Shown here: positions 18,128 to 32,400 of the stretch, piece after piece
Numbering within the stretch: the first letter of the stretch is position 1
Layout of the letters: every line of letters begins with the position of its first letter
From: a virus
Direction: 5' to 3' (one strand)
DNA: 33,942 nt
IMG/VR virus record: IMGVR_UViG_3300027805_000046
Coordinates: 1-33,942 of that record
Made by a program: the position numbers and the translations under genes
The notes under the pieces: generated by a model
Told to the model about the DNA's origin: nothing
The model's input: only the letters and a program-made list of their open reading frames with translations
Database searches by the model: none

Positions 18128-18286
18128 TTAGAGAGCGTGTTTTGACCCCACTTCGGTGGGGTCTTTTTTCATCAGCGCTAAAGACCATGCTTCAAGCCAG
18201 ATGTTGTAAGGGTCGTTGAGCATGTCTTCGTTGCCAGTGCGCTTCAACAATGCAACCCAATCTTCAAATTCTTTTTTAGGATCCAT
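18128..18286 (-). CDS. Small protein, 52 aa, downstream of DNA polymerase
   Basis: A 52-codon frame starts with ATG at 18286 and stops at 18128-18130. It begins MDPKKEFEDWVALLKRTGNE and continues through DPYNIWLEAWSLALMKKDP to EVGSKHAL. The start overlaps the last 11 bases of the polymerase gene, so translation would be coupled to it. The peptide looks like a normal soluble helical protein with well-placed Trp and Leu residues, which argues for coding. The plus-strand terminator stem is read here as codons for DPTEVGS. No function is known. A chance frame remains possible. Confidence 0.55.
   Translation of the reverse strand: MDPKKEFEDWVALLKRTGNEDMLNDPYNIWLEAWSLALMKKDPTEVGSKHAL
18144..18169 (+). 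terminator. Rho-independent terminator of the late operon
   Basis: GACCCCAC (18144-18151), loop TTCG and GTGGGGTC (18156-18163) form a perfect 8-bp GC-rich stem with an extra-stable tetraloop, followed by TTTTTT (18164-18169). It acts for the plus strand only, since there is no T-run on the other side. It closes the tail and virion operon, where it meets the convergent replication genes. The hairpin also lies inside the coding sequence of the minus-strand 52-codon gene. Confidence 0.93.
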
Positions 18287-21005
18287 CAGACACTACCTTC
18301 CATTTTTCAATTTGTAACATACGGATGCCATTACCACCCATCCGACCTCGTATCAATAGCACAGCACCGATCGGTACTGCCTCTAAGATTTCTTTGCCCA
18401 TCTTTTCGTAGTCCTTACGACGCACTGTGGCGATTGCTAAGCCAGTGTCGTCTTTGATGGTTACGTTAAGCCAATAACGGAACTGTCGGTCGTAGTCGGT
18501 AATCACGCCACCACGCTTCATCACGTTACCAGTTTCCAGAGCGTCACGCAAGTTCTTTTCCGTTAGCACACCGATCAAAACTCGCTCCGATCCGTCTGCT
18601 TCAAGGTCGTTACACTTTGTGAACTCCCAGCCCTCTTTCAATCCGTGCTTGCGTGGGTTGGCATACCAATCCCCGAAACGAGCAGTAAATGGGTATGGGT
18701 CTGGCCATTTGAGTCTTGGATTTTCAAGTTTGGCGGTTATACTTGGGGGTAGATCTTTTTTTGTAACCCTTGAATCGAGGACTTTTTGCGCCATCTTTGG
18801 ACCAATGCCGTGGACTGCGGTAAGCCCACCATAAATTGCATCTCCTTTAGCTGCCCAGCTGGCTTCCGAACGATCTTTGTCGAACGCTACGTATTTGAAA
18901 CCTTCGGCAGTAATTTCTCGGAGGAGTTTGAGGACTGCATCGTCGTCGGAGGTGTGGCGCAAGGAAGCAGCACTGAACTGCAGTGGATGGTAGTACTTCA
19001 ACCAAGCTGTCCACGCAGAGATGACGGAGTAAGCAGCTGCATGTGCCTTAACGAAAGCATACGACCCAGCATGCATCATTGAGTTCCAAACCTCGAGTGC
19101 GGATTCTTTGTTGATGTTTTGCTGCTCAGCGCCAGCGAGGAATTTGTCTCGGAATTGGTCGAAGTATTCTTTGCCCAACGACTTGGACATTGCTCGACGC
19201 AACGCAGTCAGCTCTGGCCAACCAAGCAAGCCAATGTCCCGACCAAGGAACAAGATCTGTTCTTGATAAACCACAACACCTTCAGTTTGTTCAGTCCACT
19301 TTTTATGAATGTCATGGTGATACAACGGCACATCGTTCCCTCTCCGCACGTCGAGAAACTTCTTCGCACCACCAGATTGCAATGGTCCAGGACGAGCGAG
19401 GGAAGTGAGTGCGACAATGTCGTTGAAGTTCTTGACTTGGAACTGCCTGAGCAACTGCCGAGCAGCATCGCCTTCGAGCTGGAAAACACCAGTGATCTTT
19501 TGACTGTTTAGCAACTCGTAGATCTTTGGGTCGTGCACGTCGATGTCGGTAATCTTTTTGCCGACTTCGTCTAGGGTTTCTTGCACAATGTCGAGCGTCT
19601 TCAGCCCCAATGCGTCCAGCTTCATAAGATTTAACGACTCTGCTTGGTATTTGTCGATCTGCCCAATCCCTTCGGCAGTGACAGAGCAGTAGTCTGCGAC
19701 TGGTGTATTGCAAATGATCACCCCTGCAGCGTGCACACCTGCATGGGATGCGTGTCCTTCGAGCGCACCTGCATTCCTGAATCCAGGATGTTTGTCGAGC
19801 AATTCCCTGCCAGCCTTGAGCGCACCCATTGTGTCTTCAAGACAGAATGCTGCACGTGAGTCGCCTGATGAACGCTCGATCATGTTGTCTCGGATCTCGG
19901 CAGTTTCCCAAACTGGAATCTTCATGCGCTTGCCGACGTTGACGAGGATTGATTTGGGCTTTAACTTGTTGACGTTGCCCAGCCTAGCAATGTTTGTCTC
20001 GCCATACGTGTCTTTTAGGTAAGTAAACAATTCGTCCCTGCGGTCTCCAGGAAAGTCCATATCGATATCAGGTAAGTCGATACGAGTAACGTCCACAAAA
20101 CGCTCGAACAACAATCCGTGCTCAATCGGGTCTAGCTCGGTTATGCCGAGCAGATAACAGATTATCGAACCAGACGACGATCCACGTCCAGGACCAACGA
20201 GCATTCGCTCACGTGCCCAGCGCATTAGGTCATAAACCATCAAAAAGTAGGATTCGAACTGCTTTTCACGAATAACACCCAGTTCACGCTGTAATCTGGC
20301 TTCGTATTCCTCACCGAAACCCTTTGGAAAGCGCCAGCTGATACCTTTCCTTGCCTCTGCCTCTAAATCGCCTTCTACGACCATATTTTTGGCCACTGGC
20401 AGGGTTACAGGCTCAAATCGTTCAGCGATTTCCTCCCAACTGACCGAAACTGGGTGGATTTCATCAATTTCACGCTGTGACCACCAATGTTGCGAGTGTG
20501 CACCCAATCGCACCCCTAAAAGTTCCGCATACTTGCGGTCTGTTGGGGCAGGGTAGCGCACGTCTGAAACAAAGAACAGTGGTAGGCTCTTAGCACGAGC
20601 TACTTCGATATTTATTTTATTCTTCAACGGATTGAGTGGGTGCAAATCCACGACCATGTCTTGCGCTTTGACTCGCTCGATATCGGCAGTGAACGGAAAC
20701 ACCAACAGATTGTCGGAAAACTCTGTGTCGTAAGTTATGCCTGCACTGTGGCGGTAAAGTTCCCGCAGACCTTCCTGATTCTTGGCGAGCACCTTGATGG
20801 AGCGCTCTTCGTCGCCCACGAGCAGTTCTGCGCCAAGAATCGGTTGGATACCTGCCTTTTCTGCAGCCTTGAAAAAAGGCACATGACCCCACGTGCCCAC
20901 GTCACAAATTGCTGCTTTGGTATAACCCAACTCGCTGGCTCGTGCTACGACCCTGCCAATCGGTCCAAAACAGTTACCAAAAGTGAACTCAGTTCTTGTT
21001 ATCAT
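18276..21005 (-). CDS. DnaE-type DNA polymerase (Pol III alpha-like)
   Basis: 909 residues against about 1160 in E. coli DnaE. The PHP region (1-~200) is present, but its usual HxH metal motif is replaced by TEFTFGNCFG, so it is unlikely to bind metal. The palm has VGPGRGSSSGS (270-279) and LPDIDMDF with Asp315 and Asp317, plus Asp464 in MKLDALGLKT; these correspond to the three catalytic aspartates of family C polymerases. LARPGPLQSGG and MHAGSYAFVKAHAAAYS are further signatures. A helix-hairpin-helix lies near 727-745 (GLTAVHGIGPKMAQKVL), and an OB-type domain follows at the C-terminus (about 805-905). The tau-binding tail seems to be missing. It overlaps the DnaQ-type exonuclease gene by 17 bases, which should supply proofreading. 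Confidence 0.95.
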   Translation of the reverse strand: MITRTEFTFGNCFGPIGRVVARASELGYTKAAICDVGTWGHVPFFKAAEKAGIQPILGAELLVGDEERSIKVLAKNQEGLRELYRHSAGITYDTEFSDNLLVFPFTADIERVKAQDMVVDLHPLNPLKNKINIEVARAKSLPLFFVSDVRYPAPTDRKYAELLGVRLGAHSQHWWSQREIDEIHPVSVSWEEIAERFEPVTLPVAKNMVVEGDLEAEARKGISWRFPKGFGEEYEARLQRELGVIREKQFESYFLMVYDLMRWARERMLVGPGRGSSSGSIICYLLGITELDPIEHGLLFERFVDVTRIDLPDIDMDFPGDRRDELFTYLKDTYGETNIARLGNVNKLKPKSILVNVGKRMKIPVWETAEIRDNMIERSSGDSRAAFCLEDTMGALKAGRELLDKHPGFRNAGALEGHASHAGVHAAGVIICNTPVADYCSVTAEGIGQIDKYQAESLNLMKLDALGLKTLDIVQETLDEVGKKITDIDVHDPKIYELLNSQKITGVFQLEGDAARQLLRQFQVKNFNDIVALTSLARPGPLQSGGAKKFLDVRRGNDVPLYHHDIHKKWTEQTEGVVVYQEQILFLGRDIGLLGWPELTALRRAMSKSLGKEYFDQFRDKFLAGAEQQNINKESALEVWNSMMHAGSYAFVKAHAAAYSVISAWTAWLKYYHPLQFSAASLRHTSDDDAVLKLLREITAEGFKYVAFDKDRSEASWAAKGDAIYGGLTAVHGIGPKMAQKVLDSRVTKKDLPPSITAKLENPRLKWPDPYPFTARFGDWYANPRKHGLKEGWEFTKCNDLEADGSERVLIGVLTEKNLRDALETGNVMKRGGVITDYDRQFRYWLNVTIKDDTGLAIATVRRKDYEKMGKEILEAVPIGAVLLIRGRMGGNGIRMLQIEKWKVVSDGS

Positions 21006-21522
21006 TTAGCGCCTTGTAGCATTCCCACAGCGCTCGCACGTCGTCTACTGCTCGGTGAGTTTGGGCGAGGGGTTTGCCTTGTGTGTGTTCGTAGAGTTCG
21101 GTTAGTTTCATACGTCTGCCCTTTATGTGCATCGTTGAATCGACTGTGCATACTTGGTTCGGAGGGAAAGGGAATCTCCTCTCCCAACCAGTGCGGAGTA
21201 ATTCAAAGTATAACACGTCTCGGTCAAACGCAACATTATGCGCAACAAGCGTGTGGGCGCCAAGGAAGAAATCAGCCAGCTCGGGAATGACTTCCTCGAT
21301 CGTGCGTTTGCCCTTTAGCTCTTCTGGCTTGATGCCTGTGATTTTGGTAATCTCGGCAGAGATTTCCTGTCTCGGGTCGATTAGCTCGCCGAGTTCCGCT
21401 ACGACACTGCCCTTGTCGGAGACTTTGATCGCACCGATTTCGATTATCTTCGGTTGCAATACTAAGTCTGACGAACTAGGCAGTATCAAGCCTGTTGTTT
21501 CAAAGTCAAGCAGGATTATCAT
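20989..21522 (-). CDS. DnaQ-type 3'-5' exonuclease (DEDDh)
   Basis: 177 residues. Exo I is LLDFETTGL with Asp6 and Glu8; Exo II is LVAHNVAFDRDVL with Asp100; Exo III is THRAVDD with His156 and Asp161. This is the complete DEDDh set of the epsilon proofreading family. The length equals the catalytic domain alone, with no long alpha-binding C-terminal tail. The gene overlaps the downstream polymerase gene by 17 bases and the upstream 99-aa gene by 17 bases. The most direct reading is that it proofreads for the phage DnaE-type polymerase, whose own PHP site looks dead. Confidence 0.93.
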   Translation of the reverse strand: MIILLDFETTGLILPSSSDLVLQPKIIEIGAIKVSDKGSVVAELGELIDPRQEISAEITKITGIKPEELKGKRTIEEVIPELADFFLGAHTLVAHNVAFDRDVLYFELLRTGWERRFPFPPNQVCTVDSTMHIKGRRMKLTELYEHTQGKPLAQTHRAVDDVRALWECYKALNDNKN

Positions 21523-21805
21523 TAGTCAACTCTTCGAGCATTGCTGCATAAACAGACAGATCGTGCGCAGAGTCTTTGTGCCCACCAGCGTTTATATTCT
21601 CTGCGTAGCGCATGACCTTGCTTATGCACTGCACGAGAATACCGAAACGATTGTGCGACTCAGGCGAGTCCAGCTCTAGCCCTTTCGGGAAAATTGCAGC
21701 CATGACGTGACCATACTTCTTGTAGTTGTCGCCATAGAGTTTGTTGCGTTGTTCGTAAGTTGCAGCGCACTCACGTAACAATTCTGGAACAGATTTGGTG
21801 GTCAT
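21506..21805 (-). CDS. Phage DUF6378/nucleotide-modification-like small protein
   Basis: 99 residues. It contains YEQRNKLYGDNYKKYGHVM, then RFGILVQCISKVMRYAENI and GGHKDSAHDLSVYAAMLEEL. The YGDxxxxY segment, a central all-helical body with SKxxRYA, and a closing HDxxxYxAMLEE are features of phage helical proteins grouped under DUF6378 and similar nucleotide-modification-associated domains. These look distantly like MazG-type helical folds. The exact family call is by recall. It lies between a HAD phosphatase and the polymerase pair (ATGA overlap upstream), so a nucleotide-related task is reasonable. Confidence 0.6.
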   Translation of the reverse strand: MTTKSVPELLRECAATYEQRNKLYGDNYKKYGHVMAAIFPKGLELDSPESHNRFGILVQCISKVMRYAENINAGGHKDSAHDLSVYAAMLEELTNDNPA

Positions 21806-22227
21806 ACTAAAATCCCCCTTACACCGATTGAGTTATACATGTGGACAATGTCTTGCCTGTCGTCGTAGGCTTTTTCTATTTTAAACAACTTGAGTAAGTC
21901 GAGTGTGAATTTGCGCTTCATCTCGGCAGAGTGCTCGTGGTTGTCGTTGGGACGCATAATGAGCGCATCGTAATTTAAGTGGTTGTTCTCTAACCACCGA
22001 CGAGTTTTCAATCGCACATACTCTGGACGAGCAGTGAGGAAGAAAACTTTGCAAGGTGCTTCATCAACGATGTAACGATTCATAACAACGTCACCATCGC
22101 AGTGGATGTGGTAGTTGTGGTACTTCTGCAAGCCATCTGGCTCGGCAGGGTCGATCAACCATTGGCGCCACTCGTCGTTGCTGATGGTAGCGTCCAAGTC
22201 CACGATACGGATTGTGTTCGGTTCCAT
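21802..22227 (-). CDS. HAD-family phosphatase (polynucleotide 3'-phosphatase-like)
   Basis: 141 residues. Motif I is VDLDATIS with Asp10 as nucleophile and Asp12. Motif II is FFLTARPEY with Thr65. Basic residues at 104 and 106 (KRKF) may serve as motif III, and AYDDRQDIV (Asp122, Asp123, Asp126) is motif IV. The LTARP-type motif with DDRxD resembles the phosphatase half of T4 polynucleotide kinase and related phage HAD proteins, but no P-loop kinase half is attached. It lies one base after thyX on the same transcript. It could trim DNA or RNA 3' ends or act on a nucleotide; the substrate is unknown. Confidence 0.82.
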   Translation of the reverse strand: MEPNTIRIVDLDATISNDEWRQWLIDPAEPDGLQKYHNYHIHCDGDVVMNRYIVDEAPCKVFFLTARPEYVRLKTRRWLENNHLNYDALIMRPNDNHEHSAEMKRKFTLDLLKLFKIEKAYDDRQDIVHMYNSIGVRGILV

Positions 22228-29704: not shown

Positions 29705-30259
29705 ATGAGTAACATTAGCCCTATCGGTCGTATTTCTTTCCCTCACTTGTTCAAGCCACAGCAGAATGACCGTGGCGAGAATGTTTGGTCAGTTGTTATT
29801 GTCTTTGACAAAAAGGCGCAAGACACTGCCGAATATAAAGCGATGGAAGCTGCGATCCAAACTGCAGCAACAGAGCGCTTTGGAACAAAAGTGCCAGCAG
29901 GTGTAAAACGCAAATCCTTGGAACCAAAGAGCGGATATCCATTCACGCTCTGCGAAACCAAGACTGAGTGGTTCGGTTGGGCGCCAGAAGGCGCAACAAT
30001 GGCCACGTTCAGTAGCAAGTATGCACCTGTCGTCATTGATCGCAACAAGACTGAGATCTTGGATCAAGCCGAAGTGTATGCAGGTCAGTACGGACGTGTG
30101 CAGTGGACGAACTACGCTTACGATGCCTCAGGCAATCAAGGTGTGTCGTTCGGTTTACGTGCGTACCAAAAAGTAAAAGACGGAGAGGCTCTGTCAGGTG
30201 GTAAACCTGACATTGACGCTTTCGGGGAAGTTGACGAAGCAGCTGTCGAAAACTTCTAA
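29705..30259 (+). CDS. ssDNA-binding protein, DUF2815 family
   Basis: 184 residues. An OB-like beta body has GRISFPHLFKPQQND, NVWSVVIVFDKKAQD, a central KSGYPFTLCETK and AEVYAGQYGRVQWTNYAYD. The C-terminus is acidic and ends in Phe (DIDAFGEVDEAAVENF), as in T7 gp2.5 and other ssDNA-binding proteins that use this tail to recruit partners. DUF2815 proteins are gp2.5-like in phage replication. A good ribosome binding site and a downstream terminator suggest high-level expression. Confidence 0.88.
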   Translation: MSNISPIGRISFPHLFKPQQNDRGENVWSVVIVFDKKAQDTAEYKAMEAAIQTAATERFGTKVPAGVKRKSLEPKSGYPFTLCETKTEWFGWAPEGATMATFSSKYAPVVIDRNKTEILDQAEVYAGQYGRVQWTNYAYDASGNQGVSFGLRAYQKVKDGEALSGGKPDIDAFGEVDEAAVENF

Positions 30260-30303: not shown

Positions 30304-32400
30304 ATGGCCACTATGAAAATTATTAAACTGGAAAGACAAACGAAGGAAATGCATCTGCCTGATGACCTGATGGCAGAAAAGCGTTGGCTCGTTTGGCGGG
30401 AGGAGGATGGACGGAAAGTCCCCTACTACCCAACAACACACAGACGCAGATCTGGAACAATGGAGACTGCGCAAGATTTTGCCGCAATGGGTAGCCATGC
30501 GGATGCAATGGATTCGCTTAAGAACCACGTGCCACACTACACTGGGCTGGGCTACGCAATTACGAATGGTAGCATTCTTATCGACCTTGACGATGTGTTG
30601 GGCGAGGGTGGTAAGTTCACCGACGAGTGGGCAGAGAAGTTTACATACAAGGCGATTGCCTCGGGTGCATTTGTAGAGATTTCGTATTCAGGCACAGGCA
30701 TACACGTCATCGGTCGTGGTCACGCTCGCAAGGCTGGCGCAAAGGGAATCGCAATCGAAGTTTACCCAGACAAGCGCTTTGTGGCGATTACTGGCGAGCT
30801 AATGGCCAATACGGAATGTCCCGACGCAGTCACCGACATAACCGACTTAGCCGAGGAAGCGCTCCAAGAGTATCAGCGCAGGTGCGACGAGAAAGGTTTA
30901 AACAATCTGTCCTCCGCAATGGCGAGCGAAGAGGAACTGGCTTACATAAAGGGACAAGTCGAAGGCGACACCCTCACGCAAGTGCGCACGTTGTTGCAGG
31001 TGTTCTCTCCCGACGAGCGTGACCAGTGGTTCAAAGTCGGGCTGGCGCTGGGTCGGGCATTCCCGAACGACAAAGGTGTATACGAAGAGTACGCAAAGTG
31101 GTCACGTGCCTCGCCGAACTACAACGCCAAAGCCGACGACAAGACCATGCACGACTTGTTCTATCGGCAAGCACTGTTACCCACGAAAAGCAAATACACG
31201 CTCGACACAATGATCGCTCAGGCGCAGAGCGTGGGTGTGCAGCTCAAGTTGTTCACGCAAGCATTCGACGACTTGCCTCCGACAGACGAGGAAATAAAAG
31301 TCAAACGATTGCTCGGCTGGGACAACAACAAGCACGACGCACGGAACTTGTTCGCCAACCCTCCACCGCCAATGGAGTTTATCATCGAAGACATTCTGCC
31401 GAGGCATCGGACAACTTTTGCAGCTCCAGGAGGAACTGGTAAGACGCAGATGACGTTGTGGATGGCGTTGCACGTGGCAGCAGGTAAGGCACTGTTCGGC
31501 AAATACGAAGTCAAGCGTCCAGGAAAAGTATTGGTCATGAACGCAGAAGACCCCAAGCGTCAGCTACAAAGACGTTTGATTCAACTTGCTAACCATATGG
31601 AGTGGGACAGCGACGAGCAGAAGTTCGAAGCATTCGAGAATGTTGCCTTTGTGGACTTCGAAATCGATACAATCTCGCTGTCTGCGCAAGTTGCTCGCAC
31701 AAACCACTACGACATAACCAAAACAGTCGAAGAAATAATCAAAGCCTACAAGGAAGTCGGTCTGAGCTGGGTCATCTTCGACCCGATGACCTTGTTCGGG
31801 TTCGACGAGGCTGGTGGGAATGACTCAGCCTCGGCAATGATGAAGGCTTCGGGCATCCTCGCAGACCAACTCAGTTGCGCAGTGACTTACGTAACGCACA
31901 CGACTAAAGCTGGCGCACGATCAGGCGAAGCAGACATGCACACCACTCGTGGAGCTGCAGCATTCGGCGACTTAACACGAGCGCATTGGAACTTAGTGAA
32001 CTTCCGTCCATACGACGCAATGACTAAGACTCGTTACTTGCAGATGTCGTTCGACAAGGCTAGTTATGCCGCACCGCAACCACCAGTGCACATAATGGCA
32101 ATCGAGAACAACACATTCGTAACGTATAACCCAGAGGACGAGGACGACGGAGAGTTCGACGAGACATTGTGGGAAGGTGTCAAGAAGGCAATCGACTTCC
32201 TGCGCAAGGCTGGCGAGGCTTGCTCGGTCGATACAGTTTCAACTTACGGATACGAGGTCAACGGACAACATGTCGGTAGGACACGTGCTAAGCCGAAGAT
32301 TCGTGAGTGGTTGGAGGAAGGACGCTTAGAAGTAATAAGCGAGGGACGCAGAAGGCAACAACTGCGTGTGAACAAGACGTGGGATGATTCAAACTTTTAA
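30304..32400 (+). CDS. Primase-helicase (AEP primase + PriCT-2 + RepA-type ATPase)
   Basis: 698 residues. Residues about 20-175 form an archaeo-eukaryotic (Prim-Pol) primase domain: ILIDLDD (Asp94, Asp96), SYSGTGIHVIG (Ser129, His134) and AIEVYPDKRFVAITG. Residues about 230-290 match the PriCT-2 module (QWFKVGLALG, YAKWSRASPNYN). From about 360 a RecA-type ATPase follows, with Walker A APGGTGKT (Lys380), MNAEDPKRQ and Walker B VIFDPMTLFG. The C-terminal tail has a winged-helix flavour (DFLRKAGEACSVDTVS). This fusion lays primers and unwinds DNA at the fork. An alternative start exists at codon 4; no strong ribosome binding site is visible for either. Confidence 0.93.
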   Translation: MATMKIIKLERQTKEMHLPDDLMAEKRWLVWREEDGRKVPYYPTTHRRRSGTMETAQDFAAMGSHADAMDSLKNHVPHYTGLGYAITNGSILIDLDDVLGEGGKFTDEWAEKFTYKAIASGAFVEISYSGTGIHVIGRGHARKAGAKGIAIEVYPDKRFVAITGELMANTECPDAVTDITDLAEEALQEYQRRCDEKGLNNLSSAMASEEELAYIKGQVEGDTLTQVRTLLQVFSPDERDQWFKVGLALGRAFPNDKGVYEEYAKWSRASPNYNAKADDKTMHDLFYRQALLPTKSKYTLDTMIAQAQSVGVQLKLFTQAFDDLPPTDEEIKVKRLLGWDNNKHDARNLFANPPPPMEFIIEDILPRHRTTFAAPGGTGKTQMTLWMALHVAAGKALFGKYEVKRPGKVLVMNAEDPKRQLQRRLIQLANHMEWDSDEQKFEAFENVAFVDFEIDTISLSAQVARTNHYDITKTVEEIIKAYKEVGLSWVIFDPMTLFGFDEAGGNDSASAMMKASGILADQLSCAVTYVTHTTKAGARSGEADMHTTRGAAAFGDLTRAHWNLVNFRPYDAMTKTRYLQMSFDKASYAAPQPPVHIMAIENNTFVTYNPEDEDDGEFDETLWEGVKKAIDFLRKAGEACSVDTVSTYGYEVNGQHVGRTRAKPKIREWLEEGRLEVISEGRRRQQLRVNKTWDDSNF

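Follow-up and report, generated by a model that had tools for sequence, protein, structure and literature searches.

The locus examined here raises the question of whether a C-family DNA polymerase and a small exonuclease, encoded side by side by a phage, work together as a replicase, and what would hold such a replicase on DNA. Both genes lie on a viral sequence of 33,942 nt (hereafter the window, meaning the whole stretch of DNA analysed, itself a genome fragment). A preliminary description, made from the letters, had proposed a compact two-gene phage replicase with a degenerate PHP domain that has shed its clamp-loader contacts. The features discussed are collected in Table 1.

Table 1. Coordinates and evidence for the polymerase, its domains, the exonuclease and presumed replisome partners in the window
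Feature	Position	Strand	Evidence
C-family (Pol III alpha-like) DNA polymerase, 909 aa	18276..21005	-	ATG start; Pfam, PHROG, alignment, model
PHP domain, residues 1-203, fold retained, 2/9 consensus metal ligands	20397..21005	-	Z 17.8 to E. coli PHP in 4gx8; ligand table
Polymerase core, DNA_pol3_alpha, residues 214-467, with D315, D317, D464	19605..20366	-	Pfam, alignment
Fingers domain, residues 471-630	19116..19595	-	Pfam
Single weak helix-hairpin-helix, residues 728-744	18774..18824	-	18.6 bits, below Pfam cut-off of 24
C-terminal OB fold, residues about 789-907	18285..18641	-	Model, structure match, alignment
DnaQ-like DEDDh 3'-5' exonuclease, 177 aa, without epsilon-type tail	20989..21522	-	ATG start; Pfam, PHROG, motifs, alignment
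Gp2.5-like single-strand binding protein, acidic tail ending in Phe, presumed replisome partner	29705..30259	+	phrog_112, 2.4e-38
Primase (AEP type)-PriCT-2-RepA-like helicase fusion, presumed replisome partner	30304..32400	+	Pfam, PHROG, AEP primase and RepA matches

Searches against Pfam, PHROG and PDB sequences were concordant in identifying the larger protein as a Pol III alpha-like polymerase of family C and the smaller one as an exonuclease of the DEDDh type. The polymerase matched DNA_pol3_alpha (7.4e-64), DNA_pol3_finger (1.6e-34) and PHP (3.9e-10) in Pfam, and phrog_405 'DNA polymerase' (3.3e-212) in the PHROG search. The three palm aspartates singled out in the preliminary description aligned with E. 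coli D401, D403 and D555 and were present in every row of the alignment, placing the protein, with its Pol III alpha core, among the C-family DNA polymerases. An AlphaFold2 model built from 57 sequences (pLDDT 88.5, pTM 0.79) corresponded to E. coli alpha over residues 1-766 (Z 39.9), with the OB fold standing separately at 769-907. The preliminary description was also right about the missing tail: in both alignment and model the chain terminates after the OB fold, and the tau-binding end of the E. coli and Taq enzymes has no counterpart. Bacterial DnaE1-type polymerases are ordered PHP, Pol3, (HhH)2, internal clamp motif, OB, C-terminal domain; the window polymerase departs from this plan in lacking the C-terminal domain and the clamp motif, and in having one weak HhH only.

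The polymerase of a relative, L003, is 90% identical to that of the window. Compared with L003, the polymerase and exonuclease genes had low dN (about 0.077 and 0.074, respectively) and saturated dS (about 2.0 and 2.8); both genes are therefore under strong purifying selection. A pseudogene or chance open reading frame (ORF) was ruled out by a dN/dS far below 1 and by full-length relatives at 80-90% identity. Bacterial genome contigs scanned with the polymerase yielded no close match, only distant bacterial relatives at 25-36% identity.

The PHP domain has kept its fold and lost most of its metal ligands. We scored nine ligand positions from the list in PMC3666897, counting consensus letters, and found E60 and D148 as the only matches in the window, compared with four of nine in E. 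coli DnaE. The HxH motif reads R4-T-E6, the TEFTFG that had been taken as a sign of degeneration occupies residues 5-10, and alignment did not recover an intact set of metal ligands. At a core identity of 40-50%, PHP domains were 29% identical within the degenerate class versus 39% within the intact class. The degenerate class nonetheless has near-invariant PHP positions, including D35, T38, W39, G40 and H41 (93-100%); these may point to a role in structure or in docking.

The exonuclease is a complete, separate protein, as first described, with ORFs, motifs and profiles in agreement. Its ORF overlaps that of the polymerase by 17 nt, both on the minus strand; it matched RNase_T in Pfam (1.1e-22) and phrog_192 'DNA polymerase exonuclease subunit' in PHROG (1.4e-40), and the DEDDh catalytic set is complete (D6/E8, D100, H156 and D161). 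PolC enzymes hold the exonuclease within the PHP domain; here it is a separate ORF, and no ORF in the set tested matched both exonuclease and polymerase profiles. The protein aligns to residues 9-182 of the 243 of E. coli epsilon and ends there. E. coli epsilon has a clamp motif at 182-187 and an alpha-binding tail (PMC3642679 and PMC4703070); the phage exonuclease, ending at about epsilon residue 182, thus lacks both and is not an E. coli-type epsilon.

The same gene pair recurs in many phages. A tblastn search of 50,697 phage records gave 1307 matching the polymerase and 428 matching the exonuclease, all below 60% identity. We opened 16 of these phage records, 12 from a closer group and four more distant. 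Each of the 12 closer named phages, among them members of Pbunavirus, Carpasinavirus and Wifcevirus, has the exonuclease gene upstream of the polymerase gene, and in all 12 the aligned PHP domain is degenerate. These DnaE-DnaQ cassettes (phrog_405 plus phrog_192) have the gene pair and order of the window, with the exonuclease mostly ending at or just before the polymerase start (in BcepF1 a 207-nt ORF lies between them). They also share a polymerase that ends after the OB fold, and often have ThyX and PNK genes upstream; the window polymerase is only 34-38% identical to those of the named phages opened. The four distant phages had no adjacent exonuclease, by annotation or by profile; three retained 9/9 PHP ligands, and in the fourth, Microbacterium phage FreddieHg, the annotation splits the DnaE-like polymerase between two adjacent ORFs, the PHP part apparently apart from the core and the second ORF without PHP. 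Intact-PHP phage DnaE-like polymerases (Streptomyces phage Lizz, Bacillus phage vB_BpsS-36 and others) are likewise family C and replicase-like but, unlike the window's, combine all nine ligands with no adjacent exonuclease, and a few are accompanied by clamp-like or loader-like genes. One 84-kb record (G011, locus L012) encodes both a DnaN-like clamp and a clamp-loader-like ATPase alongside a family C polymerase of intact PHP, the reverse of the window's arrangement.

A survey of viral contigs, after removal of near-copies (at least 95% in the core), comprised 236 polymerases. Of these, 210 had their N-terminus complete and 700 nt or more of upstream sequence; the 26 rows dropped were 16 with the N-terminus missing, nine with less than 700 nt upstream and the E. 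coli reference. Scan pattern A2 held two PHP ligand positions and so favoured intact PHP, whereas patterns A1, A4 and A5 did not. With a supplementary pattern added for the final calling of PHP states, a DnaQ-like gene was found within 4 kb at 101 of 104 degenerate-PHP loci versus none of 105 intact-PHP loci among the 210 non-redundant viral loci; one locus of middle PHP state, counted apart, had no exonuclease match. Wherever the distance between exonuclease and polymerase was measured (103 loci), the two genes were on the same strand (103/103). The locus L017 was intact in PHP by its own sequence. Across whole records the association was weaker, RNase_T matches occurring in 2 of 50 intact-class records and also in the BpsS-36 and L014 records.

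Three degenerate-PHP loci had no exonuclease match within 4 kb. In L007, whose polymerase is 86% identical to that of the window and whose contig ends 1.95 kb upstream, a 104-aa ORF of unassigned family sits in the exonuclease's place (1671-1985), overlapping the polymerase start; it had no PHROG and no phage match. The family C polymerases of L015 and L016 are extended by about 120 aa at the N-terminus and have a degenerate PHP domain but no adjacent exonuclease, and a search of the whole 58.9-kb L016 record found none. A FastTree phylogeny of the polymerase core, in which long branches were noted and earlier state calls were used, required no more than two changes in PHP state and two in exonuclease presence, so the pairing appears to be, in essence, one old split rather than repeated co-evolution.

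In bacteria, PHP ligand loss accompanies a separate exonuclease (PMC3666897), a PHP-for-epsilon rule extended by PMC3919608 and PMC12926913. The open-access literature searched, incomplete in coverage, yielded no paper giving the PHP/exonuclease rule for phages. The arrangement itself is not new: the two-gene cassette is a known, widespread phage gene set, and a degenerate PHP domain with a separate DnaQ is the arrangement of E. coli (PMC3666897), so any claim of novelty for the pair was not borne out. Like E. coli Pol III alpha and epsilon, the window proteins have a family C palm, an inactive PHP and a separate DEDDh exonuclease; unlike them, they have no tau-binding domain, no internal clamp motif that can be recognised and no epsilon tail bearing a clamp motif.

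Consistent with the preliminary description, profile searches found no DnaN or clamp-loader domain in the window, and longer relatives had none either. Among the 39 records searched, the 22 of the window's clade (10 virus and 12 phage) had no clamp middle domain, loader domain or polA above cut-off, and the 10 clade virus records searched had no clamp C-terminal domain. Two clade records of 55,943 and 55,944 bases are probably near-complete. T4-type clamps were absent from all 27 records searched for them, and 50 further records obtained through pattern A1, nearly all of the degenerate class, gave one sub-threshold match (11.6 bits). A polA-type polymerase, raised in the preliminary description as a finding that would speak against its reading, was absent from the window and its clade relatives: PF00476 had no match above cut-off in 39 records, and a single 9.9-bit sub-threshold match containing a stop was dismissed as noise.

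The preliminary description had also suggested a search for a clamp-binding motif, and no Qxx[LM]x0/1F-type motif was found in the window polymerase or exonuclease. In the polymerase tail, the motif occurred in 3/95 sequences of the degenerate class (3.8 expected) and 6/79 of the intact class (6.0 expected); these counts being close to expectation, phage polymerases of both classes, as groups, showed no clamp motif above chance. The scan is able to detect real clamp motifs, since 34/80 polymerases from bacterial genomes carried one (11.9 expected). MAFFT paired E. coli QADMFG with FTARFG of the window, which we rejected as a surviving clamp motif because the letters differ and the segment is a modelled helix. 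In the alignment to 5fkv the last aligned residues were 775 of the model and 952 of the chain, range ends that suggest that most of the E. coli QADMFG segment has no counterpart in the window. The new detail to emerge from these comparisons is that neither subunit has a recognisable clamp-binding motif and that the exonuclease lacks epsilon's tether to alpha and the clamp. The proposal that the pair has shed its clamp-loader contacts fits the sequence, which goes further than that proposal in that clamp-binding motifs are missing too. A loss of clamp use itself would be a step beyond this, and the host clamp may still be engaged by the phage through a different contact.

Phe is the last residue of the SSB tail both in the window and in the four other records compared. 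The primase-helicase, 80-89% identical throughout among relatives, contains a clamp-motif-like QLKLF at residues 313-317, between PriCT-2 and helicase, kept in seven of seven records (the window and six others); the chance probability of at least one such motif in 20 early proteins is 0.13, so it is only a lead. The structure model of this protein was unusable (pLDDT 38). Among 27 records searched, SSB and strong helicase matches were confined to the window's own clade, which in having its own primase-RepA-like helicase fusion and Gp2.5-like SSB differs from the named-phage cassettes. By analogy, these two proteins suggest a small T7-style replisome around a family C core. Elsewhere in the window, two minus-strand ORFs at 21506-22227 match the N- and C-terminal parts of phrog_4889 (polynucleotide kinase/phosphorylase) and look like a split gene, the counterpart being a single ORF in Pseudomonas phage Ab27; two neighbouring plus-strand genes at 422-1519 and 1925-2971 both hit one and the same stretch of phrog_2295 and probably represent a tail fibre gene that has been duplicated.

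We consider it very probable that the pair constitutes a two-subunit phage Pol III-type core, an alpha-like polymerase with a trans-acting DnaQ-like proofreader, that probably copies the phage genome. The alpha-like subunit would synthesize DNA; its PHP domain would be a dead nuclease retained as a structural scaffold and probably a docking site; and the exonuclease, a putative proofreading subunit by virtue of gene linkage, would bind the polymerase and proofread in trans, the overlap with its gene just upstream allowing both proteins to be produced together. Such a core would probably copy a genome of about 56 kb, the length of the longest relatives, with the phage primase-helicase and Gp2.5-like SSB. 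Family and domain matches, the structure model, a PHP fold with two of nine ligands, gene linkage and purifying selection all support this reading, and the PHP-for-epsilon exchange, a published bacterial rule (PMC3666897, PMC12926913), was counted in its favour. Against it stand the reduction of the pairing to one tree event and the three loci, L007, L015 and L016, without an adjacent exonuclease. An accessory or repair polymerase, with the host replicase copying the phage genome, is highly unlikely: bacteria use DnaE2 and other related polymerases of inactive PHP in accessory roles (PMC12926913), and the polymerase gene may be dispensable, but the polymerase is paired with a proofreader and conserved in many complete phages, a search for one further polymerase family (PF00476) gave nothing above cut-off, and the phage encodes its own helicase-primase and SSB.

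How the two-subunit core would stay on DNA is less settled; it appears not to be clamp-held in the E. coli way. That the host beta clamp is still engaged, with the OB domain or the surface of the exonuclease, for example, making a contact that would not be recognised as Qxx[LM]x0/1F, is a serious possibility, if somewhat short of probable. The E. coli OB domain also contacts the clamp, alpha with a mutated internal motif still binds weakly (PMC4703070, PMC3642679), and the window polymerase has retained its OB domain; the canonical motif is, however, absent from both proteins, the degenerate class lacks the excess of tail motifs seen in bacterial polymerases, and the exonuclease lacks the region in which E. 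coli epsilon has QTSMAF. We think it unlikely that the core works with no sliding clamp at all, neither a phage one nor that of the host, and owes its processivity to coupling with the helicase-primase and Gp2.5-like SSB, in the manner of T7 with an unrelated polymerase. Quite unlikely, too, is that the helicase-primase rather than the polymerase contacts the host clamp through QLKLF, or that the SSB tail links polymerase to fork as in T7. Conservation of QLKLF and of the Phe-ending tail favours this, but the motif's chance probability, the high identity of the whole protein, its unusable model and the restriction of SSB and strong helicase matches to one clade among the 27 records searched weigh against it.

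By kind, this is an ordinary phage replicase pair, and the preliminary description of it was correct. Kazlauskas and Venclovas (2011) reportedly related the parts of viral replicases to genome size. The pair mostly extends known facts, and is useful more than surprising: it brings phages under the rule, known from bacteria, that one proofreader, PHP or DnaQ, usually goes with a C-family polymerase. Because it has lost every E. coli-type tether looked for, the phage pair offers a small test, provided by nature, of what share of the Pol III holoenzyme long-range synthesis needs, and the question of processivity and exonuclease retention applies to the whole family.
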